From positions 1 through 22,725 of the IMG/VR virus record IMGVR_UViG_3300025759_000754: DNA of 22,725 bases; one strand, 5' to 3'. The translations under genes were made by a program, and so were the position numbers. This DNA is from a virus. Below the pieces are notes generated by a model that saw only the letters and a program-made list of their open reading frames with translations, did no database searches and was not told the origin of the DNA. Positions 3,064 through 17,626 of the stretch are shown piece after piece; position 1 is the stretch's first letter, and every line of letters begins with the position of its first letter.

Positions 3064-4928
3064 TAACGACCACCATCAGGATAGACATCCATTATAAAAG
3101 TACCCATTTTAAAGTTACCTCCTGCGGTATTACTTGTAATTTTAAAATTAGCTTGTCGACCACGACCTCTCATATCTTTTTTTGTATCGGTGGTGGCCAC
3201 CGTTAAGGCTGTTTGACTAACAACATTACCATAAGGATAGTTTTTAAAACTCCAAGTCACATCCACATCACCTGATTGATCTCTAAAGTCAGGAACAAAT
3301 TTTGCGATACGCATTAACTGTTCACCTCCTTCATCAATATTAAAATCACCTGATTGTATAAAAGACTGCATTACAGAACCATCAGCATCAACACCAAATT
3401 CTTGACGAAAGTAATTAGATGCACCATTAGATAAACCAATGACAGTGGGTGTTGTATTAACCGTTGTATCTGTTAAATATTCAGTAGCTAAAGGATTTTG
3501 AAATACACCACGGTCTACCCATGTTGTTCTATTCATTGATCCAATCGACCAAGATTGTTCTAAATAATTATAAACCACACAGCGATTAACTTGTGGTGAA
3601 GGATCGTTGTTAGGGTTAGTTACATAAAACCAAATAATTTCTGCAAACTCGGTATTCACTCCTGCAAAGATTTGATCGGTTTGTGTTAAATCTAAACTTT
3701 CAAAAACAAAATCATCAACAGTGCAAGGTATTTTTTTAACAGTACCATCAAAAGCAAAGAATGCATTCTGGCCCATCCAATAGGCTACGTCTCGCACGAC
3801 CACAGCAGCGTGTTGTCCTAAGAGTCCACAGTTACGACCTAATTGATTGAGTCCAAAAGTAAAAGGGGGACCAATAAACTGTAGTCCGTGAAGGGAGGTA
3901 TCTGTCCAAACTAATATTTGACCACGAGCTTTATCAGCACCAATAATAGTAGAACCGTCTTGTACTCGTAAGGAACCAGCAGTATTTTCTGCTCTCGGCT
4001 CATAAGTATTAATATCTTCTTGAGAAGAAAAACGTAATAAAAGAGGATCTTGAGAAGAACCTAAACCAATAGTTTTTTCTGTACCAAATAAAATTAAATG
4101 TCGATCAGGAGTGGAGACTAAAGAAAACTTAGAAGTAGTGGGTGCACTAGCAACTAAACTGGCTCTACCCGATAGTCCGTCCGTGGTCGGTGACCATTGA
4201 TACGTCGAACCATTCAAAACAGTTGCAATTAAAAGTTCACCGAAGTTATCTAAGGACCAGTCACGACCATCAAGGGTAACGGATGATGTCGAACGAGCCG
4301 TGCCCCATGTTTCGGTATTCCAAGTAGACGTACCCCAACCATAACCAAAAGTAGAAAAAGCAGGACCAACATTAATATCAAAAACAGCAGTTGCTGTTCC
4401 TGTTGTAGTTGAACCAGTGCTCTCAACACTATCTTGTTCAATAACAAAGGCATTGATATTTGTTACAGACTTAACTTCAAAACTACGATCAAAATCAGTT
4501 GCTGTAAAACTGGTACCGGATAAGCTAGTTGTTCCTGAAAAAGTAACAATGTCTCCTTGGTTTGCTCCATGACCATTAATATTAACGGTTACATTAGCAG
4601 AGCCACTGCTTGTTGTGAAAATACTTGTAACAGCGGTGTTTGTCTGTCTTATGGGAGTTATGTCGTAAAGAATATCGTTTGCATAAACGTATAACTTTTT
4701 GTCAGTGCCAATAGCTGCAAGCCTAGTTCCATCCAAAGAAACCCAGTGATGAGCATCACGAGCCACACCAATTAAACGACTGTCGGTTGTTTTTTCCCAG
4801 CCACCTATCTTCTCAGGTAAGCCATAACGAAAGCGAATATTGTCACCGTCCGTAAAACCACCAGACGCACCTAAATCACTGGTCTGTTTTTGGATCCCCG
4901 GTTTGAGTTGTATCTTTGTTAATGTCAT
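3063..4928 (-). CDS. Tail hub/nozzle beta-propeller protein (P22 gp10-like DNA stabilisation protein)
   Basis: A 621-aa structural protein. The N-terminus LKPGIQKQTSDLGASGGFTD, then GDNIRFRYGLPEKIGGW (residues 28-44), is the hallmark opening of the P22 gp10-like 'packaged DNA stabilisation' family of tail proteins. This is followed by propeller-like blades (SLDGTRLAAIGTDKKLYVY, VTLDGRDWSLDNFGELLIAT, FSLVSTPDRHLILFG, VRDVAYWMGQNAFFAFDG, NRCVVYNYLEQSWSIG). The end, MRGRGRQANFKITSNTAGGN then KMGTFIMDVYPDGGR, also fits nozzle-type tail proteins such as T7 gp12. It would sit below the connector and help close the DNA channel. About residues 105-190 look like an inserted Ig-like or beta domain. The gene begins inside the 3' end of the glycosyltransferase gene (53-base overlap in another frame). 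I keep that start because the family motif begins only a few residues after it. Confidence 0.8.
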   Translation of the reverse strand: MTLTKIQLKPGIQKQTSDLGASGGFTDGDNIRFRYGLPEKIGGWEKTTDSRLIGVARDAHHWVSLDGTRLAAIGTDKKLYVYANDILYDITPIRQTNTAVTSIFTTSSGSANVTVNINGHGANQGDIVTFSGTTSLSGTSFTATDFDRSFEVKSVTNINAFVIEQDSVESTGSTTTGTATAVFDINVGPAFSTFGYGWGTSTWNTETWGTARSTSSVTLDGRDWSLDNFGELLIATVLNGSTYQWSPTTDGLSGRASLVASAPTTSKFSLVSTPDRHLILFGTEKTIGLGSSQDPLLLRFSSQEDINTYEPRAENTAGSLRVQDGSTIIGADKARGQILVWTDTSLHGLQFIGPPFTFGLNQLGRNCGLLGQHAAVVVRDVAYWMGQNAFFAFDGTVKKIPCTVDDFVFESLDLTQTDQIFAGVNTEFAEIIWFYVTNPNNDPSPQVNRCVVYNYLEQSWSIGSMNRTTWVDRGVFQNPLATEYLTDTTVNTTPTVIGLSNGASNYFRQEFGVDADGSVMQSFIQSGDFNIDEGGEQLMRIAKFVPDFRDQSGDVDVTWSFKNYPYGNVVSQTALTVATTDTKKDMRGRGRQANFKITSNTAGGNFKMGTFIMDVYPDGGR

Positions 4929-5721
4929 TTGCTAAACTAAATATGGATCCAACGTGACCATTAAAATGCATGTTTCCATGATGTTGTAAAGGCGACGCGA
5001 CATCCGCCCATATCTTACCACCGATTTTAGACCATAGTCTAGAAAAATAATAGTCTTCACTGAGGTATCGATCGTCTTTGTCCCAAGGTAGCTTACCCAC
5101 TCCAAAGAAATCATAGCAATTATTAGATGCATAACGACCACCGTTAATAATTTGATCTGTTTTATACTGACGTTCGGGGTATGCTTTTTTCATCTTTTTG
5201 AAGACATCTCGTTTGATTAACATCATGCCTGTAGCGGCTTCTAAAACTTCACAAAAACCGTTTTTTAGTTCTATACCTTGTGGGTTTTCAAAATTTAAAT
5301 TATATCCCAAAGCTTTATAAGAAACTTCATCCTCTGTAATTTCAGGGTTTTTCTTTACTGCCTTAATCACTTGATCCCAGTGAATACATTTTCTTGGATA
5401 AATACCACAAGCAATATCTTTATCCGCTCTGATCAATCTTTCTATGTTTTCAGCCTTGAAACCAATATCGGCATCTATGAATAATAAATGTGTTCCCACA
5501 AAATTAGTATCGTCTAAAAACATGGATACAATGGTATTTCGAGCACGAGTGATTAAAGACTCATTACCCATCGTTTGTAGTTTCATTTCAACACCTTGGG
5601 TCAACATCCATTGTTGTGTATGAATTATTCCATGTAAAGTAGTCTCACTGAGCATTCCACCATACATGGGCATGCCTAAATAAATTCTAATATTATGATC
5701 TTTCAGATCGCCTTCTAACAT
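4876..5721 (-). CDS. Glycosyltransferase-like protein (GT-A fold, DxD), minus-strand copy
   Basis: A 281-aa paralogue of the plus-strand enzyme at 1272-2000. It has an N-terminal beta strand IRIYLGMPMYGG (11-22), NESLITRARNTIVSMFLD (53-70), LLFIDADIGF with the DxD at Asp83/Asp85, RADKDIACGIYPRK (98-111), ATGMMLIKRDVF (163-174), SEDYYFSRLW (221-230) and His247/His248. It is longer than the paralogue, with an insert after the YPRK block and a polar C-terminal tail (DINKDTTQTGDPKTDQ) encoded in the region that overlaps the propeller gene by 53 bases. GGAG precedes the ATG by six bases. The start overlaps the end of the upstream oxygenase gene by 7 bases, so the two enzymes are translationally linked. 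It probably transfers a sugar; whether to virion adhesins, host glycan or something else cannot be told from sequence. Confidence 0.82.
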   Translation of the reverse strand: MLEGDLKDHNIRIYLGMPMYGGMLSETTLHGIIHTQQWMLTQGVEMKLQTMGNESLITRARNTIVSMFLDDTNFVGTHLLFIDADIGFKAENIERLIRADKDIACGIYPRKCIHWDQVIKAVKKNPEITEDEVSYKALGYNLNFENPQGIELKNGFCEVLEAATGMMLIKRDVFKKMKKAYPERQYKTDQIINGGRYASNNCYDFFGVGKLPWDKDDRYLSEDYYFSRLWSKIGGKIWADVASPLQHHGNMHFNGHVGSIFSLANDINKDTTQTGDPKTDQ

Positions 5722-6398
5722 ATTTTACTCCATGTCTCAGGGCTTGGTAGACAGTGTTCTGACTTGATCCCTGATTTCATCGTTAATAAAACATCAGCAG
5801 AAATACTGATGCGTGGTCTTTCTTTTTGATTTTCTTCTGTGTAATGTAATAAATTACTTGGAAAAATAATCAATCCTCCTGTTTCTGAGGGATATTTAAC
5901 AGAAGCAAAGTTAATCTCACTCCACTTTGTAAAATAATTATTATTAGCAGGAATATACATTCCTGTTTTTTGCCACATATCTTCTTCAAAAGTTATGTTT
6001 CCTTGCTCTTCTGCTTCGACATAATAAACTAAACTGTAGTGACTTGCTGTATGTTTATGACTGGCTATGTGTTGTCCCTTTGTAGAAAAGGTAGCCCAAG
6101 CTTTAATAATATGAACATCAAAAACACTTAGATCATAATGATGTTCTGTTAAAAATAAGATTATTTTTTTTCTAATCTGACTAAATAATTTTTCAAAACG
6201 TTTATCAGTATGAAGATTATCTGTAATTTCCTGTAAGGGTGTATCTGATTTTATATCAGTTGTTTTAGCGAATTGTGAGTTAGTTGGTTTTACCTCTTGA
6301 TTAATTAATTCTTTAATATCTTTGTTAATCGTTTCGTAGTTATCTATCTTAGTAATAAATATAGGGTTGCCAAACCATTTCTTAATTTCGTACTGCAT
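5715..6398 (-). CDS. 2-oxoglutarate/Fe(II)-dependent oxygenase-like protein
   Basis: A 227-aa protein resembling the phage and marine-bacterial 2OG-Fe(II) oxygenase family (TIGR02466 / PF13759 type), which hydroxylates a protein or small-molecule substrate using O2 and 2-oxoglutarate. WATFSTKGQHIASHKHTASH (101-120) followed by YSLVYYVEAE gives the first histidine cluster on the double-stranded beta helix, with the HKH at 114-116. GGLIIFPSNLLHYTEENQ (174-191) gives the distal His185, and RPRISIS (194-200) supplies the arginine that would bind the 2OG carboxylate. An EED acidic trio lies at 138-140. The exact metal ligands need alignment. AAGGAG with a 5-base spacer sets the start. It overlaps the downstream glycosyltransferase gene and follows the glycine-rich adhesin gene, so a hydroxylated then glycosylated acceptor is conceivable but unproven. 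Confidence 0.8.
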   Translation of the reverse strand: MQYEIKKWFGNPIFITKIDNYETINKDIKELINQEVKPTNSQFAKTTDIKSDTPLQEITDNLHTDKRFEKLFSQIRKKIILFLTEHHYDLSVFDVHIIKAWATFSTKGQHIASHKHTASHYSLVYYVEAEEQGNITFEEDMWQKTGMYIPANNNYFTKWSEINFASVKYPSETGGLIIFPSNLLHYTEENQKERPRISISADVLLTMKSGIKSEHCLPSPETWSKIC

Positions 6399-6403
6399 TA
6401 TTT

Positions 6404-6409
6404 CTCCTT
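6404..6409 (-). promoter_or_regulatory. Strong ribosome binding site of the oxygenase gene
   Basis: AAGGAG on the minus strand ends five bases before the ATG at 6398. It lies in the 13-base gap after the glycine-rich adhesin gene and fixes the oxygenase start, which is not coupled by overlap to its upstream gene as many others here are. Confidence 0.7.
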
Positions 6410-6411
6410 CT

Positions 6412-7335
6412 TTAATTTATACGTAAAAATCTGTATTTAATTTCTCCTGTGCCTCCGTTACCACCACCTGTTTGTCCTTGTGCTCCACCACCCCCGGCTC
6501 CTGATCCACGAGTACCATTACCACCTGAAGAGGAACTTGGAACACCTCCTGCTCCCCCAGCAATATTTCCAGCATAGGAAGCTCCACCAACACCACCTGT
6601 TATTTGGCAGTTATCACCACCACAGTTTCCGGGATTGGTTCCCGCTACACCATTGCCTGATTGATTAAATGTACCCACAGGTCCTTGATTCAAGGTTGTG
6701 GCTGTGCCAAACGTGACTGTTGCACCATTGGCTTCTCGAAACGTACCTGAAGTTAAAGGAGTAGCACTTACCGTTCCCGTACCCGCTATAGACGGACTAT
6801 TACTACGTAAAGGTCCTTGAACACCTCCTCCTGTTCCCGAACCTCCTTCGCCTCCTGTTAAGGTAAAAATTGTTCCTGTCGTACTTCCCGATAAGATTGT
6901 ATTTCCACCATCTCCTGCAGTAGAATTATAAGGACTACCAGTAGTTCCTGTTCCTCCTGCTCCTATCGTTAAGGTTAAGGTTTCTCCTTCGGTTACAGAA
7001 TAAACTTGATCCGAAACATATCCACCCGAAGCACCACCTGCTCCCGCAGACTCACCTCCTGCTTTATCATACTCAGCACCTACCACACCTCCTGAACCAC
7101 CACCAACAGCGGCTTGCACGTGAATGGCATTGGCTCCTGTGGGTACTACAACTGTTGTGGTTGATGTTTCTGTGGTAAAAGCAGTAGCGACAAAGGCTGT
7201 ATAAAATTGTTTCCACGATCCACCGACCTTGATCCATGCTTCTTGGATCTCTTTCCACGAACCGCTTTGTTTATAAAATGCTTCGTTGACTTGCTTCCAA
7301 GCACCAGAAACTTTGAGATACCATTCGCTCGCCAT
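6412..7335 (-). CDS. Glycine-rich tail adhesin with N-terminal tryptophan repeats
   Basis: A 307-aa putative receptor-binding or fibre-tip protein. Residues 9-50 contain three 14-residue repeats of the form (V/Q)(S/G)G(A/S)WK(Q/E). A beta-rich middle follows (TTVVVPTGANAIHVQAAVGG, YSVTEGETLTLTIGAGG), and the C-terminal part is packed with Gly in GG, GAGG and GNGG clusters (about 225-297), ending KYRFLRIN. Such glycine stretches form polyglycine-II-type sandwiches in distal adhesins of some phages (S16 gp38 is the known structural precedent), while W-repeat starts like this occur widely in fibre proteins. There is no enzyme motif. It starts by TAATG overlap with the preceding fibre gene and closes the adhesin block. 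A small surface-exposed adhesin is the best reading; the target receptor is unknown. Confidence 0.75.
   Translation of the reverse strand: MASEWYLKVSGAWKQVNEAFYKQSGSWKEIQEAWIKVGGSWKQFYTAFVATAFTTETSTTTVVVPTGANAIHVQAAVGGGSGGVVGAEYDKAGGESAGAGGASGGYVSDQVYSVTEGETLTLTIGAGGTGTTGSPYNSTAGDGGNTILSGSTTGTIFTLTGGEGGSGTGGGVQGPLRSNSPSIAGTGTVSATPLTSGTFREANGATVTFGTATTLNQGPVGTFNQSGNGVAGTNPGNCGGDNCQITGGVGGASYAGNIAGGAGGVPSSSSGGNGTRGSGAGGGGAQGQTGGGNGGTGEIKYRFLRIN
7186..7311 (-). repeat. Three 42-bp coding repeats (14-residue Trp motif)
   Basis: Residues 9-50 of the glycine-rich adhesin repeat with a 14-residue period: VSGAWKQVNEAFYK, QSGSWKEIQEAWIK, VGGSWKQFYTAFVA. The GxWKx core and the aromatic/Lys end are retained in each. 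At the DNA level the copies have diverged; the coding pattern, not the bases, is repeated. Confidence 0.85.
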
Positions 7336-8117
7336 TATGCATCATGGATAAGGTAAAAATCTCCATTATCACCTACACCACTACTAGGAGCTGAAGTGCT
7401 CGTTGTTGTAATTAAATTTCTAACAGAGATATTCCCTACCGTTCCATCGGTGTAAACTAATTCATTGGTGGATACAAAATTGTCAGCGTTGACATTTCCT
7501 GAAAAGGTTGCAGTTGTACCATTAATCGTTCCTGTAACATTGACATTCGCTGCCGCATTAACATCCGCCGTCACATTCGCTGTGCCTGTGACTGCTATAT
7601 TACCTGTGATGGCAGCATTGCCTGTAATATTAGCATTGATAGAAGCATTGACATTTCCTGTAACAGTTAAATCTTGTGTCGAGATCGCACCAAAGTTTGA
7701 TAAAATTCTTGAGACATTAAAATTAGGACTACCATCGCAGTAAACCACATCGTAAGCTCCTTGAGTAATAGCCACACCATTAGCACTGTGACCTGTAGCT
7801 GCAACAGTTAAAGAAAAAGAACCTGAAGTATTATTGTAGACAATATAATTGTTTTCTTTAGCAGGGATAAAGACTGTAATATTTCCTGTCAGAGTACCAT
7901 TTAAGTCTAAAACTTTATTAGAAGATTCTGCGGTCGCTGAAGCATTTGCTGTTGTTAAGGTGACGTCAGCCGATCCTCCGACATTCTTGGATAAAAAACC
8001 ACCTGCAAAAGCGTCAAGAACCTCGAGGTTATTATTGGTCTTATCGCCCCAAGTACCTGCGTTTTCGCCTGTTCCTTGAAGTTCGAGTTTGAGTCTATCT
8101 GAATATGTTGATGCCAT
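7335..8117 (-). CDS. Tail fibre protein with beta-helical TGN repeats
   Basis: A 260-aa protein. It starts MASTYSDRLKLELQGTGENA and continues GTWGDKTNNNLEVLDAFAGG (1-40), an N-terminal module I recognise from many marine phage fibre or fibre-adaptor proteins. Residues 50-135 form a beta-rich middle (NKVLDLNGTLTGNITVFIPA, YNNTSGSFSLTVAATGHSA). Residues 149-213 are short TGN/NVT repeats (DLTVTGNVNASINANITGN and onwards) typical of a trimeric beta-helix shaft. The C-terminus, SGVGDNGDFYLIHDA, is a short cap. The gene lies between the triplicated adhesin cassettes and the glycine-rich adhesin and overlaps the latter by TAATG. AGGA lies about 12 bases before the ATG, a rather long spacing. It probably carries or anchors adhesins on the tail. 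Confidence 0.8.
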   Translation of the reverse strand: MASTYSDRLKLELQGTGENAGTWGDKTNNNLEVLDAFAGGFLSKNVGGSADVTLTTANASATAESSNKVLDLNGTLTGNITVFIPAKENNYIVYNNTSGSFSLTVAATGHSANGVAITQGAYDVVYCDGSPNFNVSRILSNFGAISTQDLTVTGNVNASINANITGNAAITGNIAVTGTANVTADVNAAANVNVTGTINGTTATFSGNVNADNFVSTNELVYTDGTVGNISVRNLITTTSTSAPSSGVGDNGDFYLIHDA

Positions 8118-8131
8118 ACTATATTAATATC

Positions 8132-10564
8132 CTATCTTGCTGTGACAGGCAACCCTCCTGATGTAACGAATGGATTCTCTGCGAAGGCCATGTAAATCAT
8201 TGTGCCACCATTTACACCAACACCTGAACTTCTTATTTTAATTCCATTACTTAAAAAATCTATAGGTTGGCTATAGGTATTTTCTGCATTTGGTAAATTT
8301 GCATTTAAATTATTTGAAATTACATTGTATGTATCTCTAGCACTGTCAAACATATACCAATCATATCCAACACCACCAGTAGTAGAATTTTTACACATGA
8401 AAAAAGCAGGTCTAAACCCAGTATAGACGAATGTTCCGTCAGTATTTGCATTCCCTATATAGCTACCGAACTTGCCATATCCTTCTACGTTATTAAAACA
8501 ATACATTATATAATTATTTCCATTAGTATTTACTTCCGACCTAGTACCAATAGACACTGTTGTTGATGTAGGAGCAATATCATTCCACCAACCTGCACCA
8601 TTAACACCACCATAAGCATCATATAAATTTAATCTTAACGCATTAGTAAAACCTAAAGTGTTTGTCATTTGAACACCCCAATCTGCACTTGATGACCTAT
8701 TCTTTACGATAACCATATCTGGAACAACACCGAGTCCATGACCAACAGTAGCATTACTTCCTGTTCCTGTATAAGTGACTATAGAAAATCCTGCAGTGGT
8801 ATTAGCTTGAACTGTTGAGGTAATACTTCCGTCTGTGTTCGATGAAGTCGTGCCACCATTGGCTTTCCATGCCCATAAAACCAAAGGTTGAGAACTTCCA
8901 TTAATTCCTGCAGTTGAACCTACTTCTACTGTATTAGTTCCAACACCTCTTACTCCTGCACCAGTTGTGAGATCAGCTTCAGCCGAGTTTGCATTAGAGT
9001 AAAGTCTTTTTGATGAAGCGACTGTTGCACCTCTACTTGTATCCCATAATTGATGCCAATTAGCTGCTAGATTTCTTTCTTTAAACCACATAAAATCTGC
9101 TTGTAAATCAGAATTTCCGTTAAAAGTTAATGTCTGTGTACTACCATTTCCGTCAAAAGTTAATGTTTGGAAATAAACACTCCCATCATCAATCGTAGGA
9201 GATAATGCAGTTGCTAAATTAGCTGAGTTTAAAGATAAAAATCCTGTTGGGGGTGCGTAGTAGAAGTCACCATAGCCATTTCCGTCTGCGTTTCCTTGTG
9301 CAGTTTCTGTTCCTGCAAAACTTCCGTCTTGTCCAAAGTTTGGAATCATTATATTTCCACCAATACTAGTGTCAGAACGTATTTGAAAGAATGGTACATA
9401 TTCTGATGCAGTTAAATCAATGCCAGAAATACTTTCATTAGTTCCTGCACTAGGATCACCAGTAGCACTACCTGAATTATTATAATATGTGCCATTGATA
9501 CCAAACCAAATTTTGCCATTATCAAAATCTACTGCAATATTAATAATATTGCCACTACTCGCAGTTGGTGATGTACCATTATATGTTCCATCTTTGTAAT
9601 ATAGACTTGCCCAAGATAAAAAAGCATAATTATTAAATAAACTTGACACTGGATCACCACTTACTCCTTTACCATTTAAAACAACAGTTTGTGATGCTTC
9701 ATTACCTATCCATCCAGCCACGCATCTGAAGGTTGCTTCGGTATTACTCATACGCACTTCGTGATACCACTTACCACTTTTGACACCAAAAGTGCCAATA
9801 GTACCATCCCAATTTCCAGTTCTTGAAGTAGTTAATTTTAAATTACCTTCTGATAATGAAGTATTTGCCATTGGTAAAATCGTAGCAAAAACATTACTTG
9901 GTGCATCTGTCGTCTGACGACCACTACCTGACTTGGTAAAATTGTTTCCATTCCCGGAGCTATCGGCTCCCAAATCACCACTGTTAGAAAACTTTAAATA
10001 AAAACCATTAGTGCCGTACGATCCTGAATATCCTTTAGGTTTCCATATACCTGTGGAATCAGTCTGACCAAAGTCGGTAGGGGATAATGCTTGTCCGTCT
10101 ATGTTATAGATATCGGAGAAATATCCTTCGAAATAATTACTACTATCTAGTCCACCTATCTCATTTTGATTAGTGGAATTCCATAGACACGCTGTAGAAT
10201 TTAAAGTAGGAGTGCTTGAAAAAGTTATATCTACTTGAGATCCATTAACATATACTTTCATTCTATCGGAACCTGTAGCTTCTGTTGTATCTAAAACTGT
10301 TACAATGTGATACCAAGCTGAAGTATCCCTAAAAACTTGATTTGTAGAAGTATTACCCTTACCAGTAGTTCCTCCTGTATCAAAATAAAGTTTATTATCT
10401 GGATAAAAACTAACGTAAAATCTATTTTGTGATGTACCGTCGTAGGCATGAAACAGACTTTGTAAAGTATCTAACCCTGATCTTTTTAACCAAAAACTTA
10501 ATGTAAATCTTTTATTATCTGTTGGGCCACTACTTGGCGTTCTTGCTAATTTTGTACTAGCCAT
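8132..10564 (-). CDS. Large adhesin: LamG + SPRY + DUF7483-like domains (cassette III)
   Basis: An 810-aa predicted carbohydrate- or receptor-binding virion protein. Residues 15-165 are a LamG/concanavalin-like jelly roll (FTLSFWLKRSG, AWYHIVTVLDTT, MKVYVNGSQV, GYFSDIYNIDGQAL). Residues 185-215 are a linker with LGADSSGNGNNFT. Residues 255-415 are a SPRY-like domain (GVKSGKWYHEVRMSN, NIAVDFDNGKIWFGINGTYY). After YAPPTGFLSLNSANLATALS (436-455), residues 460-810 form a C-terminal phage domain that I know as DUF7483, with GHGLGVVPDMVIVKNRS, DGTFVYTGFRPAFF and the terminal IYMAFAENPFVTSGGLPVTA. It is homologous over its whole length to the protein at 14514-16850 and to the split pair at 11346-13735. 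It is coupled by TAATG to the IPT protein upstream. There is no catalytic motif, so binding rather than hydrolysis is inferred. Confidence 0.85.
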   Translation of the reverse strand: MASTKLARTPSSGPTDNKRFTLSFWLKRSGLDTLQSLFHAYDGTSQNRFYVSFYPDNKLYFDTGGTTGKGNTSTNQVFRDTSAWYHIVTVLDTTEATGSDRMKVYVNGSQVDITFSSTPTLNSTACLWNSTNQNEIGGLDSSNYFEGYFSDIYNIDGQALSPTDFGQTDSTGIWKPKGYSGSYGTNGFYLKFSNSGDLGADSSGNGNNFTKSGSGRQTTDAPSNVFATILPMANTSLSEGNLKLTTSRTGNWDGTIGTFGVKSGKWYHEVRMSNTEATFRCVAGWIGNEASQTVVLNGKGVSGDPVSSLFNNYAFLSWASLYYKDGTYNGTSPTASSGNIINIAVDFDNGKIWFGINGTYYNNSGSATGDPSAGTNESISGIDLTASEYVPFFQIRSDTSIGGNIMIPNFGQDGSFAGTETAQGNADGNGYGDFYYAPPTGFLSLNSANLATALSPTIDDGSVYFQTLTFDGNGSTQTLTFNGNSDLQADFMWFKERNLAANWHQLWDTSRGATVASSKRLYSNANSAEADLTTGAGVRGVGTNTVEVGSTAGINGSSQPLVLWAWKANGGTTSSNTDGSITSTVQANTTAGFSIVTYTGTGSNATVGHGLGVVPDMVIVKNRSSSADWGVQMTNTLGFTNALRLNLYDAYGGVNGAGWWNDIAPTSTTVSIGTRSEVNTNGNNYIMYCFNNVEGYGKFGSYIGNANTDGTFVYTGFRPAFFMCKNSTTGGVGYDWYMFDSARDTYNVISNNLNANLPNAENTYSQPIDFLSNGIKIRSSGVGVNGGTMIYMAFAENPFVTSGGLPVTAR

Positions 10565-11343
10565 TACACAAAACTCATTGACTCAAAGATGCCAACTTGG
10601 ATCGTGATCGAAAATGCACGATCGGCTGTTTGACTCTCTTGGTCAGTGCCTCGTAAAGTAAAGTTATATGTTGTTTCATTCGTGATTGAGCTACTCTCCG
10701 TACCAGCAATATACACTGTGTTCTGAGTGCTTCCAAGACTTAAACCTGTGGGTAGACTTCCTGATACCTGACTAAAGTCCACTGCAGAGTCAGAACTGGC
10801 TGTGACCGCTACGTTAATTGATGCTCCTTTATCAAACGTACCTAAGGTTCCTGAAGCCGTGACAAAAGTAACACCGTCAGAGACAGTGAGATCAGCAGCT
10901 GTGGATCGAACCGCTAGACCATTGGGATTTTCAATTCTGATAAAATAGTTTGCGTTTGTTGCTAAAGTAACATTGATTGTTAAAGAAGTAGAACTATTAA
11001 AAGTAATACTATTTGGTGTGAAAACATCACCATCGCTTGCAATGATTTCTATAATAGGCATGTTGGTAAAATTTGATCCTGTAATGGTAATATCGGTTGC
11101 TGTACTTGGCTCGATTGTGTCAGGGGAAATCGAAGTATAAACAGGAGCCGAAGCGGTTGTTAAAACATTACCTGATAATCGGTTATCATCTAAAGTTCCT
11201 GTGGTAATATTACTCGCATTTAATCCTGTCAGGCCATTGCCATCCAAGGTCCCTGTTACGTTGACCGTGCTACCTGCATTACCGAGAGTGAGGGTAGAAC
11301 TGGATTGAGGTAGAATAGTATCGACTTGAATTTCACTAGCCAT
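10564..11343 (-). CDS. IPT/TIG plus Ig-like (He_PIG type) fibre protein (cassette III)
   Basis: A 259-aa beta protein, probably extended on the virion surface. Residues 1-66 are fibre-like (QVDTILPQSSSTLTLGNAG, then TVNVTGTLDGNGLTGLNAS and TTGTLDDNRLSGNV). Residues 68-154 match an IPT/TIG immunoglobulin-like domain (YTSISPDTIEPSTATDITIT, GSNF, NANYFIRIENPNG). Residues 165-250 match a cadherin-like or putative-Ig (He_PIG) domain with the diagnostic SGSLPTGLSLGS and DRAFSITI. Its paralogues at 13735-14517 and 16850-17626 have the same layout, and each is followed by the LamG-type adhesin. The small protein may be the shaft or adaptor for the large one, but that is inferred from pairing only. 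It begins two bases after the upstream stop. Confidence 0.85.
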   Translation of the reverse strand: MASEIQVDTILPQSSSTLTLGNAGSTVNVTGTLDGNGLTGLNASNITTGTLDDNRLSGNVLTTASAPVYTSISPDTIEPSTATDITITGSNFTNMPIIEIIASDGDVFTPNSITFNSSTSLTINVTLATNANYFIRIENPNGLAVRSTAADLTVSDGVTFVTASGTLGTFDKGASINVAVTASSDSAVDFSQVSGSLPTGLSLGSTQNTVYIAGTESSSITNETTYNFTLRGTDQESQTADRAFSITIQVGIFESMSFV

Positions 11344-11345
11344 GA

Positions 11346-12401
11346 TTATCTCGCTGTTCCTGCTAAACCATTAGATCCGACTAAAGGAAACTCGGCAAAG
11401 GCCATGTAGATTATTGTTTCACCACTTGCGTTTTGACCACCATCACTTGTTCTTAATTTAAATCCATTACTTAAAATATCTAAAGAATCAAAACTACCTT
11501 CAGCAAGAGAATCATTTGCTCTTAAATATAAATCAGTTGGATTTCTTGTATCTCTAGTTGTATCCCACATCCACCATATAGCACCTGCCGTACTTCTGCT
11601 TGTATTTTTATACATAATAAAAGAAGGTCTAAACCCAGTATAGACGAATGGTCCGTCATTGCTTCCATTACCTGTGTAAGAACCAAACTTACTATATCCT
11701 TTTACTTCTGCGAAACAGTAGGCGATTGTTGCTTGACCACTTAAATTATTATTATATCCACCACCAATAACACCAAAGACTGTTGAATTAGGTGTAGATG
11801 TTCCCCAATAATTAGAAATTGTAGCAGTAGACGCAGTTTCGTTAAGTTGTACTGTTTTATCTTTACCTAAGTCTTTATTGTAAATTTGCCAAGCACTTGC
11901 ACTATCTCTTGATTTGGTAATGACCATAGCAACAGTGCTACCTAACCCATGTCCGACTGTACCTGCAGTTCCTGTTCCCGTGTAAGTGACAACACTAAAA
12001 CCAGAAGTTGTGTTAGCTTGAACAGTCGAAGTTATAGATCCATCGGAATTAGACGAAGTAGTTCCACCATTGGCTTTCCAATGCCACGAAGCATAAGTAG
12101 TTCCTGATTGACCTGAATTGTCTTTATTCCCTGTGGTAAACCCATCACTATCAAAACTATTTAAACCTTCTGTTTCTGTACTTTCAGATGCATTTGAATT
12201 TGTTACTAATGGTTTTTGAACACCCCTAGAACTATCATATAAAGTATGTGAATGAGGTTGTGACCTTGCTTTAGTCCATACCCAATCAGGTTGAAATCCA
12301 ACACCTGTTATTGATTGACCACCACTTCCTATTGCAGTTCCATCACCTGTATATAAAACAGTATTAAAAAAATCTCTTGGTTGAAAACTAATATATGCCA
12401 T
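11346..12401 (-). CDS. Stand-alone DUF7483-like adhesin part (C-terminal half of the split cassette II protein)
   Basis: A 351-aa protein equivalent to the C-terminal region of the 810- and 778-aa adhesins. It has TGVGFQPDWVWTKARSQ, WHWKANGGTTSSNSDGSI, TGTVGHGLGSTVAMVITKSR-type motifs, DGPFVYTGFRPSFIMYKN and the end IYMAFAEFPLVGSNGLAGTA. It starts MAYISFQPRDFFNTVLYTGD, where the full-length relatives run on from a SPRY domain through an ASVLSPTIGDGSQYF-type linker. Its ATG overlaps the stop of the LamG-SPRY gene as TAATG, so both halves are probably made from one transcript by coupled translation and may reassemble. All conserved motifs are intact, so it does not look like a decaying remnant. 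Confidence 0.82.
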   Translation of the reverse strand: MAYISFQPRDFFNTVLYTGDGTAIGSGGQSITGVGFQPDWVWTKARSQPHSHTLYDSSRGVQKPLVTNSNASESTETEGLNSFDSDGFTTGNKDNSGQSGTTYASWHWKANGGTTSSNSDGSITSTVQANTTSGFSVVTYTGTGTAGTVGHGLGSTVAMVITKSRDSASAWQIYNKDLGKDKTVQLNETASTATISNYWGTSTPNSTVFGVIGGGYNNNLSGQATIAYCFAEVKGYSKFGSYTGNGSNDGPFVYTGFRPSFIMYKNTSRSTAGAIWWMWDTTRDTRNPTDLYLRANDSLAEGSFDSLDILSNGFKLRTSDGGQNASGETIIYMAFAEFPLVGSNGLAGTAR

Positions 12402-13735
12402 TATCCATAACTCGCTATATTTTTAGTACACAATGCATAATACCCTGTTGGAGGAGCATATTCAAATATTCCGATACCTGCATCATCTGCGTTACCTGAT
12501 GATACAGCAGTTGTTCCGAAATAGCCATTGCCGAAGTTAATATCTAAAACATAAGATGTTGAACCACTACCATTGACAGTTCCAACAACATAATTATCAC
12601 CTGTTTTAACTGTAAAACTATGTGCGGTTGCATTTGAAAAATCTGCTTGGTCAAATCCCCCACCTAATCCGTCATTCCAAAGACCATTTTTTCCTACATA
12701 AAAATTTCCATTGTCTATATCAAATGCAATCATAAGAATATCACCATTTGATACACCGCCACCTAAACTTCCTTGTAAACTTCCATTTAGATATAGATTT
12801 GGAATACTTCCATAGACTCCTGCTGTGTTTGATGCAGTGAAAAGATTGGAAGAAGCAGGGTGTAAATTTTGTGGAACAACACCCAACCAAGCAGAAACTC
12901 CTGTTACTTCACATTCAAAATACCATTGACCACTTGATACTCCTAAAGTTGTATTAGATGAAAGTCCACTTGCTGGTTGTGATAGTGTTGTATTTCCCAG
13001 ACTTAATGTTGGAGGAACTGATGTACTTTTATCAAGAGCATTCCAAGTAGGAAAAACATTAGTCGGTGTGTCTTTAGTTTGGGTTAAGGTTCCACCGCCC
13101 ACGGACCAAGTGTTACCATTGCCTGAACTGTCGGTTCCCATTGCTCCTGAGTTTTCCATTTTTAAAAAGAATCCGTTAGTACCATAGGTCACTGAAGGAG
13201 CTGTTTTAGGTATCCAAATTCCTGTGGTGGAATCTGTTTGTCCAAAATCAGAAGCAGCGTATTGAGTGCCATCGGTGAAATGTACATGAGCCATATATCC
13301 ATCATAATAAGCAGAACCACTATATGCTTGACGACCTATTCCATGACCAACTGTATTATTATAAGCATAAGAACCTGACAATGAAGAACGATTATCAGTA
13401 GAAAAATCAGTAACTAAAGAACCATTTATATAAAGTTTTGCTCTATCTGATGCTGTTCCTTGTGTTGTATCAAAAGCAAATACAATATGATACCAAGCAG
13501 AAACGTCTCTAATTCTTTGAGAGGTTAGAAAAAAAGTTGTTGCATCTGTTCCAAAAATTATTTGGTCATTGTTTGTAATAGTTAATCTAATATCATCTGC
13601 AGCACTACTTCCCGCATTCCAAAGTGTTTGATAACTACCTGTGCTAATAGCTGACCTCTTAATCCAAGCACTCCAAGTCCAAGTTGTTCTATTACTTGCA
13701 CTGCCGGGTGTTCTTGTTAAATATGTACTTGCCAT
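12401..13735 (-). CDS. LamG + SPRY adhesin part (N-terminal half of the split cassette II protein)
   Basis: A 444-aa protein with a LamG-like jelly roll at about 15-160 (TWSAWIKRSAI, AWYHIVFAFDTTQGTASDRA, KLYINGSLV, YMAHVHFTDGTQYAASDFGQ) and a SPRY-like domain at about 265-425 (VSSGQWYFECEVTGVSAWLG, MIAFDIDNGNFYVGKNGLWN). It ends IFEYAPPTGYYALCTKNIAS then YG and a TAA stop. The 778-aa paralogue has YAPPSGYLALCTKNLASVLS at the same place and continues into the C-terminal domain, so the stop falls exactly at the domain boundary. The sequence around the stop does not contain a standard -1 slippery heptamer; termination and re-initiation at TAATG is the simpler way to couple the two halves. Confidence 0.82.
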   Translation of the reverse strand: MASTYLTRTPGSASNRTTWTWSAWIKRSAISTGSYQTLWNAGSSAADDIRLTITNNDQIIFGTDATTFFLTSQRIRDVSAWYHIVFAFDTTQGTASDRAKLYINGSLVTDFSTDNRSSLSGSYAYNNTVGHGIGRQAYSGSAYYDGYMAHVHFTDGTQYAASDFGQTDSTTGIWIPKTAPSVTYGTNGFFLKMENSGAMGTDSSGNGNTWSVGGGTLTQTKDTPTNVFPTWNALDKSTSVPPTLSLGNTTLSQPASGLSSNTTLGVSSGQWYFECEVTGVSAWLGVVPQNLHPASSNLFTASNTAGVYGSIPNLYLNGSLQGSLGGGVSNGDILMIAFDIDNGNFYVGKNGLWNDGLGGGFDQADFSNATAHSFTVKTGDNYVVGTVNGSGSTSYVLDINFGNGYFGTTAVSSGNADDAGIGIFEYAPPTGYYALCTKNIASYG

Positions 13736-14517
13736 TAGTTAAATTGTCCTCCGTTCAGTATACCTGTAGATATGGTGATTGAAAAGGCTCGATCGGAAGT
13801 CTGGCTTTCTGCATCGGTTGCTCGGAGTGTAAAGTTATAGGCTGTATCGGAAGTATCACTTCCTGATTCCGTACCTGAAATAGTGGCGGTATTCGATACA
13901 GTAGATCCTAAGGTTAAGCCTGTGGGTAGACTTCCTGAAACTAAAGTGATGTTGACGGCTGAGTCGGATGTTGCGGAAACATCGACACTAATCGCAGATC
14001 CTTGATCAAAGGTTCCCAAACTACCCGCAGCCGTAGTAAAACTAGGTGCTTGAGATACTGTTAAATCGGCATTCGTTGATCGTACCGACTGACCGTTATT
14101 GTTTTCAATTCTAATAAAATAATCCGTTTCTGTGGTGACATTAACGTTCGCTGTTAGTGATGTTGAACTATTAAAGGTTACTTTGTCGGCTCGAAGAATA
14201 GCTCCTGTTCCAGAAATCAATTCGACAACAGGAACGGATACAAAGTTTGTTCCAGTAATGGTTAGATCGGATGCTGTGCTAGGTTCGATCGTTGTTGGAC
14301 TGACTGAAGTGTAGGTGGGAAAATCGGTGGTGAGAACCACTTGTCCTGATAGTCGAGCATTAGCCAGAGTACCAGAGGAAATATTATCAGCGTTTAATCC
14401 TGTGAGTCCACTACCATCTAAGGTTCCTGTCACGTTAATCGTGCTTCCTGCATTACCTAAGTTAAGGGTTGTTCCACTTTGAGGTAAAATAGTATCTGCT
14501 TTAATTCTACTGGTCAT
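13735..14517 (-). CDS. IPT/TIG plus Ig-like fibre protein (cassette II)
   Basis: A 260-aa paralogue of the proteins at 10564-11343 and 16850-17626. It has the fibre-like N-terminus ADTILPQSGTTLNLGNAGST and continues NVTGTLDGSGLTGLNADNI. An IPT/TIG domain follows (YTSVSPTTIEPSTASDLTIT, GTNFVSVPVVELIS, DYFIRIENNNGQSVRS), then an Ig-like He_PIG-type domain (GSLGTFDQGSAISVDVSAT, VSGSLPTGLTLGS, DRAFSITIS). The C-terminal tail is GILNGGQFN, corresponding to GIFESMSFV and GITEGMRFS in the paralogues. The start overlaps the stop of the 778-aa adhesin as ATGA. It is followed by the split LamG adhesin. It shares a 20-base identical word with the cassette III copy (13919-13938 and 10745-10764). Confidence 0.85.
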   Translation of the reverse strand: MTSRIKADTILPQSGTTLNLGNAGSTINVTGTLDGSGLTGLNADNISSGTLANARLSGQVVLTTDFPTYTSVSPTTIEPSTASDLTITGTNFVSVPVVELISGTGAILRADKVTFNSSTSLTANVNVTTETDYFIRIENNNGQSVRSTNADLTVSQAPSFTTAAGSLGTFDQGSAISVDVSATSDSAVNITLVSGSLPTGLTLGSTVSNTATISGTESGSDTSDTAYNFTLRATDAESQTSDRAFSITISTGILNGGQFN

Positions 14518-16850
14518 CGTGCAGTCACTGGCCTTCCCGTGCTATCGACAAATGGATGTTCAGCAAATGCCATGTAGATATATGTGCCACCTGATGCGTT
14601 CCAGTCTGCTGATGTAGTTCTTGTTTTAAAACCATTAGATGTAAAATCATGCATTATAATTGATGAACTTTCTGCTGCATTTGAATTAGGGTCTAATCTT
14701 GCATCAGTTGGATTAAATGTGTTTCTTGTTGCATCATCAATATGCCAATCACCAGTGGTATCTGTTCTTTTAATTAAAACAAAAGAAGGTCTAAACCCTG
14801 TATAGACGAATGTTCCGTCTGTACTTCCATTCCCTTTGTACTTGCCAAACTTGCTATATCCTTCTATTTCTGCAAAAACATAAGACACAAAGTTATCACC
14901 AGAACTATTAAATTCAGTATTGTTAGTAAGATTTGGTAATGTAATAGTTGTTGAACTAAAAGTACAAGGAAGATTGCCATCATCCCCACCAGTGTCAAAT
15001 TGCATTCTATCAAAAATTGTACTTCCAAATATCTGCCAAGTCACTGCTTGGTCTCTATTTTTGTGAATCATAATCTTTGGAGTTATCCCTAGACCATGAC
15101 CTAATGACTGACTTGGTGTTCCATTACCAGTCCAAGTTAAAATTGAGAAACCACTAGTTTGAGATACTTGAACTGTTGTAGTAATATCTCCGTCTGTGTT
15201 CGATGAAGTCGAACCACCATTGACTAACCAGTTCCAAGTTACATAAGTTCTACTATTAAAATAAAATTCACCACTATTAATAGAACCTTCAACAACTGTC
15301 ATTCCACCATTTCTAGCACTTACAGTTGTATCTATTAAATTACCAGATGCAGTTGTTTCACTAACATTCCTATTACTACTTAACATTTTTGTTTCATTAT
15401 ATCCTCTTGATGAGTCAAAAAGAAAATGTGCTTCAATATTATTTCTATTTTTTCTCCAAGAAAAATCAGGTTGGAAACTTAGGTTACCAAGATTATAAGT
15501 ACCATTTGATGATGATGCAGTGTCTAAATAAGTATCAAAATACTGACTCCCATCACCAATCGTAGGAGATAAGACACTCGCTAAGTTCTTGGTACAGAGT
15601 GCGAGATAGCCACTAGGGGGTGCGTATTCAAAGTTTCCATATCCATTGTCGTCAGTATTACCGGATGTGATTGCGAATGAGGGATTGCCAAAGTTTACTT
15701 CAGTTATACCTATCCCAGTTGTTGTATTATCCCAAACTACAAAATTCCAAGTTTTTGATGTGTCAATTCCTGTAAACGCATCACCTTGAGAAACTCCATT
15801 TAAATAAAATGTTATTGTTCCATTATCGGCATCATATAATAAACTCACTATATCATTTGATGAAATAGCAGTACCATAAGCAGTGCTAGTTCCACCACTA
15901 CCTTCATAAGGTATTTTATCTCCATTCTTTTTATAAAAATAACCATACAAACTTAATGAATTTGCTCCTTGATTCCAAGTATCTAATTCTATTATTCCAA
16001 AATTTTGAAAACCACTAACATCAGTTGGTTTCATTTCACAATACCATTTACCTGTAGTCATACTAAAGGTTGATACTCCACTGTTATCTATTGTTTCACT
16101 AGAAGCACCATTAATTTTTAAATTACCTTCGCTTAATGTATAAGCACCTCTGATTAAAGGATTCAAAGTAGCAAAATTATTATCAGGAGTATCGGTTACT
16201 TGATCACCACTACCATTTTTTGTGAAATCATTTCCATTACCTGAACTATCTGTTCCCAAACTTCCAGAGCTAGCAAACTTTAAAAAGAAACCATTGGTGC
16301 CATACGTGACGCTTGGTGTTGTTTTTGGTTTCCATTGACCGTTAGTATCAGTTTCACCAAAGTCCGATGCTTGATAAGCAGTGCCATCGGTAAAATTATA
16401 ATGAGCCAAAGTAAACTCACTATATCTAACAACATCATTGTATCTACCTATGTGATGTGCGTTGGTGCTATTTACCCATGTACTTTCATTTTGAGGGAAA
16501 TCACCATAGTCTTGATTAAATGTAACTTGCTCACCGTTAACATATAATTTTACTCTGTTGGACGCACTTGCTTGAGTCGTATCGACAGCAAGAACTATGT
16601 GATACCAAGCAGACACATCTCTAAAAACCATGTCGGTTACGTAACCATAGTCCGTGCCACTGTCGGCATGATATATATAAAACTTATCGTTTGTTCTCCA
16701 TCCAATAGAATACCATTGACTTGCGTTTAAAAAAACATCCATGAGAGTAGTCGTATAGGCTAGTGTATGTCTTTTTACCCAACAAGATATTGTGTAAGTT
16801 CTTCTGTCTCCTTGACTACTTGGTGTTCTTGATAAATACGTATCAGCCAT
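14514..16850 (-). CDS. Large adhesin: LamG + SPRY + DUF7483-like domains (cassette I)
   Basis: A 778-aa paralogue of the 810-aa protein at 8132-10564. The LamG-like part is at about 15-165 (YTISCWVKRHTL, AWYHIVLAVDTTQASASNRV, KLYVNGEQV, LAHYNFTDGTAYQASDFGET). Then come the LGTDSSGNGNDFT linker and a SPRY-like domain at about 255-405 (FSMTTGKWYCEMKPTD, VSLLYDADNGTITFYLNGVS). After YAPPSGYLALCTKNLASVLS comes the C-terminal DUF7483-like domain (LGNLSFQPDFSWRKN, QSLGHGLGITPKIMIHKNRD, DGTFVYTGFRPSFVLIKRTD, ending IYMAFAEHPFVDSTGRPVTA). It follows the IPT protein at 16850-17626 by TAATG and overlaps the next IPT gene by ATGA. It probably binds host-surface glycans; the ligand cannot be told. Confidence 0.85.
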   Translation of the reverse strand: MADTYLSRTPSSQGDRRTYTISCWVKRHTLAYTTTLMDVFLNASQWYSIGWRTNDKFYIYHADSGTDYGYVTDMVFRDVSAWYHIVLAVDTTQASASNRVKLYVNGEQVTFNQDYGDFPQNESTWVNSTNAHHIGRYNDVVRYSEFTLAHYNFTDGTAYQASDFGETDTNGQWKPKTTPSVTYGTNGFFLKFASSGSLGTDSSGNGNDFTKNGSGDQVTDTPDNNFATLNPLIRGAYTLSEGNLKINGASSETIDNSGVSTFSMTTGKWYCEMKPTDVSGFQNFGIIELDTWNQGANSLSLYGYFYKKNGDKIPYEGSGGTSTAYGTAISSNDIVSLLYDADNGTITFYLNGVSQGDAFTGIDTSKTWNFVVWDNTTTGIGITEVNFGNPSFAITSGNTDDNGYGNFEYAPPSGYLALCTKNLASVLSPTIGDGSQYFDTYLDTASSSNGTYNLGNLSFQPDFSWRKNRNNIEAHFLFDSSRGYNETKMLSSNRNVSETTASGNLIDTTVSARNGGMTVVEGSINSGEFYFNSRTYVTWNWLVNGGSTSSNTDGDITTTVQVSQTSGFSILTWTGNGTPSQSLGHGLGITPKIMIHKNRDQAVTWQIFGSTIFDRMQFDTGGDDGNLPCTFSSTTITLPNLTNNTEFNSSGDNFVSYVFAEIEGYSKFGKYKGNGSTDGTFVYTGFRPSFVLIKRTDTTGDWHIDDATRNTFNPTDARLDPNSNAAESSSIIMHDFTSNGFKTRTTSADWNASGGTYIYMAFAEHPFVDSTGRPVTAR

Positions 16851-17626
16851 TAACTAAACCTCATCCCTTCTGTTATACCAACATCAATAGTGATTGAAAA
16901 GGCACGATCAGAAGTTTGTGACTCTTGATCCGTTGCTCTGATTGTAAAATTATAGGTCGTTGCTGCAATAATAGAACTGCTTTCGGTGCCTGCAATATAA
17001 ACGGTATTTTGTGTGCTTCCTAAACTCAGTCCTGTCGGTAGGGTGCCTGACTGCACACTAAAATCAACAGCCGAATCAGAGCTTGCTGTAATGGCTACGT
17101 TGACTGCATCTCCTTTTTCAAAAGTACCTAAGGTGCCTGCCGCTGTTGAGAATACAGGAGCCGTAGAAACTTGTAAGTCAGCGTTGGTGGAACGAGTCGC
17201 TAAACCTGAATCGTTTTCAATACGAATATAATAATCACCGGCGGTAGTAATATTCGTGCTAGCAGTAACATTGGAAGAACTATTTAAAGTAATGGTATTA
17301 GGTTTAAGAATAGCACCTGTTGTATTCACAAATTCAAAAACTGTTGTGGCTGTAAATCCTGTTCCTAAGATTGTTACGTCTGTTGTTGTGGAAGGTTCAA
17401 TGGCGGTTGGTGAAATAGAAGTGTAAGTTGGTGATTGACCAAGAAGTGTAACATTACCTGATAGACGAGCATCGGCTAACGTTCCTGAACTGATGTTGTC
17501 AGCATTGAGTCCTGTTAATCCGTTTCCGTCTAACGTACCTGTTACATTAACAGTGCTCCCTGCGTTTCCTAATTGAAGGGTACTGGAACTTTGAGGTAAT
17601 ATTGTATCGACTTCAATTTGTGACAT
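16850..17626 (-). CDS. IPT/TIG plus Ig-like fibre protein (cassette I)
   Basis: A 258-aa member of the triplicated family. The N-terminus is EVDTILPQSSSTLQLGNAGS followed by NVTGTLDGNGLTGLNADNI and SGTLADARLSGNV. The IPT/TIG domain is at about 68-152 (YTSISPTAIEPSTTTDVTIL, GTGFTATTVFEFVN, DYYIRIENDSGLATRS). The Ig-like He_PIG-type domain is at about 165-248 (GTLGTFEKGDAVNVAITAS, QSGTLPTGLSLGS, DRAFSITID), and the tail is GITEGMRFS. It is the first adhesin cassette gene in transcription order and overlaps the upstream 149-aa gene by TAATG. Its C-terminal domain is almost identical in protein sequence to that of the cassette III copy (VDFS...LPTGLSLGSTQNTVYIAGTE), closer there than to the adjacent cassette II copy. 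Confidence 0.85.
   Translation of the reverse strand: MSQIEVDTILPQSSSTLQLGNAGSTVNVTGTLDGNGLTGLNADNISSGTLADARLSGNVTLLGQSPTYTSISPTAIEPSTTTDVTILGTGFTATTVFEFVNTTGAILKPNTITLNSSSNVTASTNITTAGDYYIRIENDSGLATRSTNADLQVSTAPVFSTAAGTLGTFEKGDAVNVAITASSDSAVDFSVQSGTLPTGLSLGSTQNTVYIAGTESSSIIAATTYNFTIRATDQESQTSDRAFSITIDVGITEGMRFS

Follow-up and report, generated by a model that had tools for sequence, protein, structure and literature searches.

A split LamG/SPRY-like and DUF7483 gene pair of mosaic ancestry in a putative host-recognition cassette array of a viral metagenomic contig

The two genes that overlap in a TAATG sequence near the middle of the window (the whole stretch of 22,725 nucleotides analysed, positions 1 to 22,725 of IMG/VR record IMGVR_UViG_3300025759_000754) code for proteins of 444 and 351 residues, hereafter N444 and C351. 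They probably form a co-translated two-chain host-recognition adhesin encoded in a hypervariable cassette array. The pair would be made of ordinary genes of a widespread split adhesin type; here the N gene and start peptide are of split type, and the DUF7483 body behind them is apparently recombined from genes of the fused, one-chain type.

Organization of the gene array

On the minus strand F778, the pair N444 and C351, and F810 follow one another, each preceded by an Ig-like gene (258, 260 and 259 aa, respectively). The features of the array are:

16850-17626, minus strand: Ig-like gene of 258 aa (He_PIG, TIG), preceding F778
14514-16850, minus strand: F778, unsplit paralogue of 778 aa, whose N half groups with split-type genes
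13735-14517, minus strand: Ig-like gene of 260 aa (He_PIG), preceding the split pair
12401-13735, minus strand: N444, 444 aa, free-standing LamG/SPRY-like half (PHROG 27411)
12399-12403, minus strand: TAATG junction, N444 stop and C351 start with one common base
11346-12401, minus strand: C351, 351 aa, free-standing DUF7483 protein
10564-11343, minus strand: Ig-like gene of 259 aa (He_PIG), preceding F810
8132-10564, minus strand: F810, unsplit paralogue of 810 aa, fused lineage

N444 ends in ...YAPPTGYYALCTKNIASYG and C351 starts with MAYISFQPRDFFNTVLYTG... The ORF coordinates agree with the first-pass annotation, made from the sequence alone, which had described 444-aa and 351-aa ORFs overlapping in TAATG, with one shared base, beside unsplit paralogues. 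The two genes are adjacent on one strand, N half before C half, and their one-base overlap places them among split pairs, defined here by an overlap or a short gap. The same annotation had reported at the junction a GCCATTA word found also at natural gene boundaries, and this holds: the word occurs 13 times in the window (2.8 expected), a count reached in 0 of 100 shuffles, and the GCCATTA/TAATG word is found mostly at minus-strand gene starts, the majority of the natural gene starts in the window bearing it. A consensus scan of the array for promoters and terminators gave no excess over shuffles.

Positions 10601-11715 (the end of C351 and the downstream Ig gene) and 13772-14877 (the end of F778 and the downstream Ig gene) share ~66% DNA identity across 1.1 kb, a similarity suggesting that Ig-adhesin cassettes were tandemly duplicated. 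Downstream of the array, positions 6412-7335 code for a glycine-rich protein of 307 aa (Gly_rich_2) that has 60-73% identity in many close relatives. Two proteins encoded on opposite strands, at 1272-2000 and 4876-5721, resemble each other on visual inspection (MRLFTAIPCFGGKIESRTTEALIRLHHYCIDQ and IRIYLGMPMYGGMLSETTLHGIIHTQQWML), which also suggests a likeness to glycosyltransferases.

Family assignment and predicted structures

C351 matches Pfam DUF7483 (PF24299) with 394.3 bits (E 5e-118) over profile positions 2-330 of 330, above the gathering score of 27 over the whole profile, in agreement with the initial statement that the 351-aa ORF holds the whole C-terminal domain. Residues 1-441 of N444 align to positions 2-438 of 439 of the phrog_27411 profile (E 8e-84); PHROG 27411 consists of free-standing proteins of the same length as N444. 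Both halves are full length, and the degraded domains that the first-pass annotation had named as evidence against its reading are found in neither. N444 matches no Pfam family at E<=0.01. It does not reach the gathering score of LamG (PF13385), which F778 and F810 do, and has no match to SPRY (PF00622, gathering score 26.3), for which F778 and F810 fall just below with 25.3 and 23.0 bits, respectively. Because N444 has no Pfam match of its own, it is LamG-like only through homology to F778 and F810, each of which joins LamG, a SPRY match below threshold and DUF7483 in a single chain.

AlphaFold2 models were obtained for C351 alone (pLDDT 93.4, pTM 0.92) and for whole F778 (pLDDT 89, pTM 0.89). 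The junction adjoins a short helix (residues 420-426) in the F778 model; together with the confidence of the whole-chain model, this suggests that the unsplit protein holds its N and C parts together as a single rigid body. The N half of the F778 model is similar to LamG and SPRY domains of known structure (for SPRY, e.g. 4xw3_B with TMt 0.74). Foldseek found nothing in the PDB at E<=0.001 for the DUF7483 fold. Two candidate relatives were rejected, namely AerE, whose structural re-alignment (best Z 5.8, partial coverage of the model) was too weak, and the cannula protein CanA, whose match by sequence profile against the PDB (E 0.019) was marginal and distrusted. DUF7483 thus appears to be without a confident PDB relative, which does not by itself establish a novel fold. 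The named strong matches in BFVD are DUF7483 proteins, the other strong matches there being unnamed.

Distribution of the split and fused organizations

Searched with C351, viral contigs yielded 80 loci; a further 167 came from searches that used N444, F810 and the neighbouring structural protein of 621 aa as queries. With the three from the window itself the set comes to 250 loci. Their DUF7483 ORFs follow a separate LamG/SPRY-like ORF in 111 cases and are fused to one in 64 (90 and 54 once clustered at 95% identity), a ratio that is no census since the sample is biased to relatives of the queries. The alignment with homologues advised by the first-pass annotation accordingly recovers both split and unsplit versions in nature. 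The one-base (-1) TAATG overlap is present in 45 distinct split pairs, the window's included. Annotated pairs with this overlap are found in Pelagibacter phages HTVC011P, Skadi-1, Skadi-4, HTVC031P, HTVC103P, Greip and HTVC024P, and annotated pairs with short gaps in Pelagibacter phages HTVC204P, HTVC021P and HTVC121P, while the single-gene form is that of cyanophages, roseophages and one methylophage. By sequence, split pairs form a separate and widespread type, already common in SAR11 viruses. None of the other fetched loci, mostly short fragments, carries both forms, so that the window may be exceptional in having the two together.

The window pair matches HTVC011P gp36/gp37, Skadi-1 genes 46/45, Greip gp3/gp2 and HTVC031P gp42/gp43 in gene order, one-base overlap and families, with similar sizes. 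It differs from the Pelagibacter phage pairs in its weaker Shine-Dalgarno (SD) sequence, in being surrounded by two fused paralogues and three Ig-like genes, and in that much of its DUF7483 body matches fused genes. The fused proteins of PHROG 19943 (cyanophage SS120-1 CYYG_00029, MEP301 gp16, CRP-811_32) have the modules of the window pair in the same order, but in one chain with a linker where the window has a stop and a start. No description of how the split form relates to the fused one, and no mention of DUF7483, was found in the open papers searched.

The DUF7483 gene of Greip (L258, MT375525.1 977-2047) is annotated as 'SprT-like protease' and looks misannotated. At 4384-8020 of HTVC200P (L270, MH598801.1 27000-39000), two LamG-type genes enclose a DUF7483 gene, gp036, which is on the opposite strand. 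The two copies of a 58-nt inverted repeat (95%) coincide exactly with the N/C junctions (5401-5458 and 6934-6991) and flank gp037 in this phage. The segment could be an invertible adhesin segment or the relic of a cassette duplication; no inverted C gene was found among the fetched metagenomic loci.

Composite ancestry of the two genes

The labels split and fused need only 2 changes on the tree of N halves (141 rows). The starred set that includes N444 has 54 rows, F778 and 53 split ones, and the 11 other N halves nearest to N444 are all split; by this tree N444 belongs to the split lineage. Since F778 falls in the same set, it carries a split-type N half before a fused linker and is itself likely a recombinant. 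The DUF7483 tree groups C351 with the fused L004 and L006 (SH-aLRT 98), its body being closest to fused genes (64% to L004). The stretches with distinct affinities are:

13269-13729, minus strand: 5' part of N444, 90-92% identical to the N genes L084 (split) and L085
12372-12401, minus strand: split-type start peptide MAYISFQPRD of C351, found also in the split L024, L038, L040, L053 and L105
11621-12086, minus strand: C351 segment with 86% identity to the fused L006 (97 nt exact, 11727-11823) and 85% to L005
11401-11650, minus strand: C351 segment of 250 nt identical to the fused L004, in three contiguous exact runs (C351 nt 752-1001)

The start peptide, MAYISFQP.D.FNT, is typical of split genes and absent from fused linkers. 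The linker motif of fused genes, SPTI.DGS.YF, is absent at the window junction, where the split-type peptide stands instead. As the linker is missing and not divided between the halves, the window pair is no simple cut fused gene. The initial view that the stop falls at a domain boundary is thus right in that N444 ends where its paralogues enter the linker, but no fused linker motif is parted there. Farther into C351, as far as residue ~130, neither type is clearly the closer one, and a tree of residues 12-128 did not separate a split from a fused origin. Residues 131-240 are about 73-90% identical, scan window by scan window, to the fused L005 and L006. Amino-acid identity to L004 is 97-100% in 30-residue scan windows starting at residues 236-296, L004 differing strongly from C351 outside the 250-nt identical stretch. 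Partition trees agree with the scan for the second and third parts of C351. On these comparisons C351 is a mosaic, with a split-type start and a body patched in by recombination from fused genes.

The mosaic implies DNA exchange between split and fused forms, and the pieces passed on are presumably functional in one chain as well as in two. Part of it could be an assembly chimera, the contig being metagenomic. The dN/dS ratio is <1 in both N444 and C351 against their nearest relatives. The correlation between N and C distances is modest (Mantel r 0.36 in split pairs and 0.49 in fused genes), an indication that the partners of split pairs are often exchanged.

Translation of the second gene

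An SD core (GGAG, AGGA or GAGG within 20 nt of the second start) is usual in the family, not universal. Of 53 overlapping pairs, 51 have it, placed inside the final codons of the upstream gene; of pairs with a gap, 24 of 40 have it. Among overlapping pairs with an upstream C terminus (A/S)-E-(Y/F/H)-G, the E codon is GAG in 24/24 cases and part of GCG GAG in 22/24, for a background elsewhere in those genes of 13% (GAG) and 3.8% (GCG). Pairs whose second start lies downstream have GAG in 4/7 (Fisher p 0.008 versus the overlapping pairs, indicative because the pairs are mutually related). This SD placement and codon choice show that the second start is real in the split-pair family. The window has no GGAG and holds only the following feature:

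12411-12413, minus strand: GAG, weak SD remnant 9 nt upstream of the C351 ATG (relatives have GCGGAG 8 nt upstream)

Given this weak SD, reinitiation by the terminating ribosome would be the likelier route to C351 in the window. The coupled translation proposed in the first-pass annotation is plausible: ribosomes finishing the LamG/SPRY-like protein on the N444 gene would go on to translate the DUF7483 protein from the ATG in the overlap, through reinitiation, an internal ribosome-binding site or both.

Alternative explanations

The first-pass annotation saw in the pair a functional fission, not decay, of the middle adhesin of the array. The functional part stands well with the intact halves, their dN/dS, the recurrent start and stop positions and the predicted foldability of C351; the fission within the array does not. 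A recent local event, in which a fused gene of the array gained a stop and an overlapping start, would account for the closeness of the C351 body to fused genes (64% to L004, starred with L004 and L006) and for the two fused paralogues nearby. It is nevertheless improbable in view of the grouping of N444 with split-type N halves (all 11 nearest others), the split-type start peptide and stop position, the missing fused linker, the 111 split against 64 fused ORFs, and the recombinant source of the C351 body. Decay of one half to a dying pseudogene, which has nothing in its favour beyond the split itself, is scarcely credible with full-length profiles, dN/dS <1 in both halves and a high-confidence C351 fold.

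An artefact has to be weighed too, the contig being metagenomic and its exact junction not found in a second viral contig by a search that may omit near copies. A sequencing or assembly error is very improbable there, as dozens of independent contigs, and isolate genomes too, share its start and stop positions and its TAATG, and a single frame across the junction would not give the fused linker. Programmed -1 frameshifting to a full-length product has the right downstream frame, and a slippery heptamer is found at 22 of 65 split junctions of that frame, but it is absent from the window (ACT AAA AAT) and not conserved in the family, whose conserved feature is the SD-ATG arrangement; this route is likewise very unlikely. 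N444 and C351 might instead be separate tail components that make no single adhesin, C351 serving as an accessory tip or in a chaperone-like role, as gp38 or Tfa do for fibre proteins. The loose correlation between partners and the folding of C351 alone in silico, with no convincing PDB relative, fit that proposal, which is nevertheless unlikely: both modules are found in one chain in 64 ORFs, and the 250-nt piece of C351 identical to part of a fused gene argues that the module works within a single chain too. A co-translated two-chain adhesin of the split lineage is the preferred explanation.

Role in host recognition

Close phages, whose 621-aa protein has 80-100% identity, carry other genes between the flanking 149-aa and 260-aa genes, which marks the array region as a variable cassette region. 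The hypervariable region published for Skadi-1 (13,646-15,713), which its authors link to host recognition (PMC10504331), takes in most of the DUF7483 and SPRY gene pair (13353-15730). For this reason the window pair is taken as the two-chain, co-translated equivalent of a fused adhesin. A putative role as virion tail-fibre adhesin draws on annotation and position, the pairs of isolates adjoining tail-fibre genes. A literature search on virion proteomics of Pelagibacter phages found nothing relevant. We infer that N444 and C351 are expressed, bind each other, are located in the virion and bind a receptor; on the tail, the two chains would most likely come together in a single host-recognition unit that corresponds to the flanking fused paralogues.

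Separate genes and a conserved junction sequence would make the halves easy to exchange. Domain shuffling and recent fragment exchange in phage receptor-binding proteins are described by Smug et al. 2023 (PMC10684548), and the exchange of fragments between host-recognition proteins seen in the window is of this kind; it differs in crossing between one-gene and two-gene versions, for which no description was found in the open papers searched. A bolder idea, put forward tentatively and with some doubt, is that the split has evolved as a means of swapping: the receptor-binding module of SAR11 phages would be a separate co-translated chain whose DUF7483 tips, or pieces of them, are freely exchanged with one-chain adhesins across unrelated phages, and some phages (HTVC200P) might even switch them by inversion at junction repeats.

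The window itself is ordinary, an intact and commonplace gene pair in a hypervariable region. Its interest lies in showing that abundant marine phages have one putative host-recognition module in one-chain as well as two-chain versions, which are interchangeable and trade fragments. Cultured SAR11 phages have the split pair, and a two-chain adhesin would be directly testable there.
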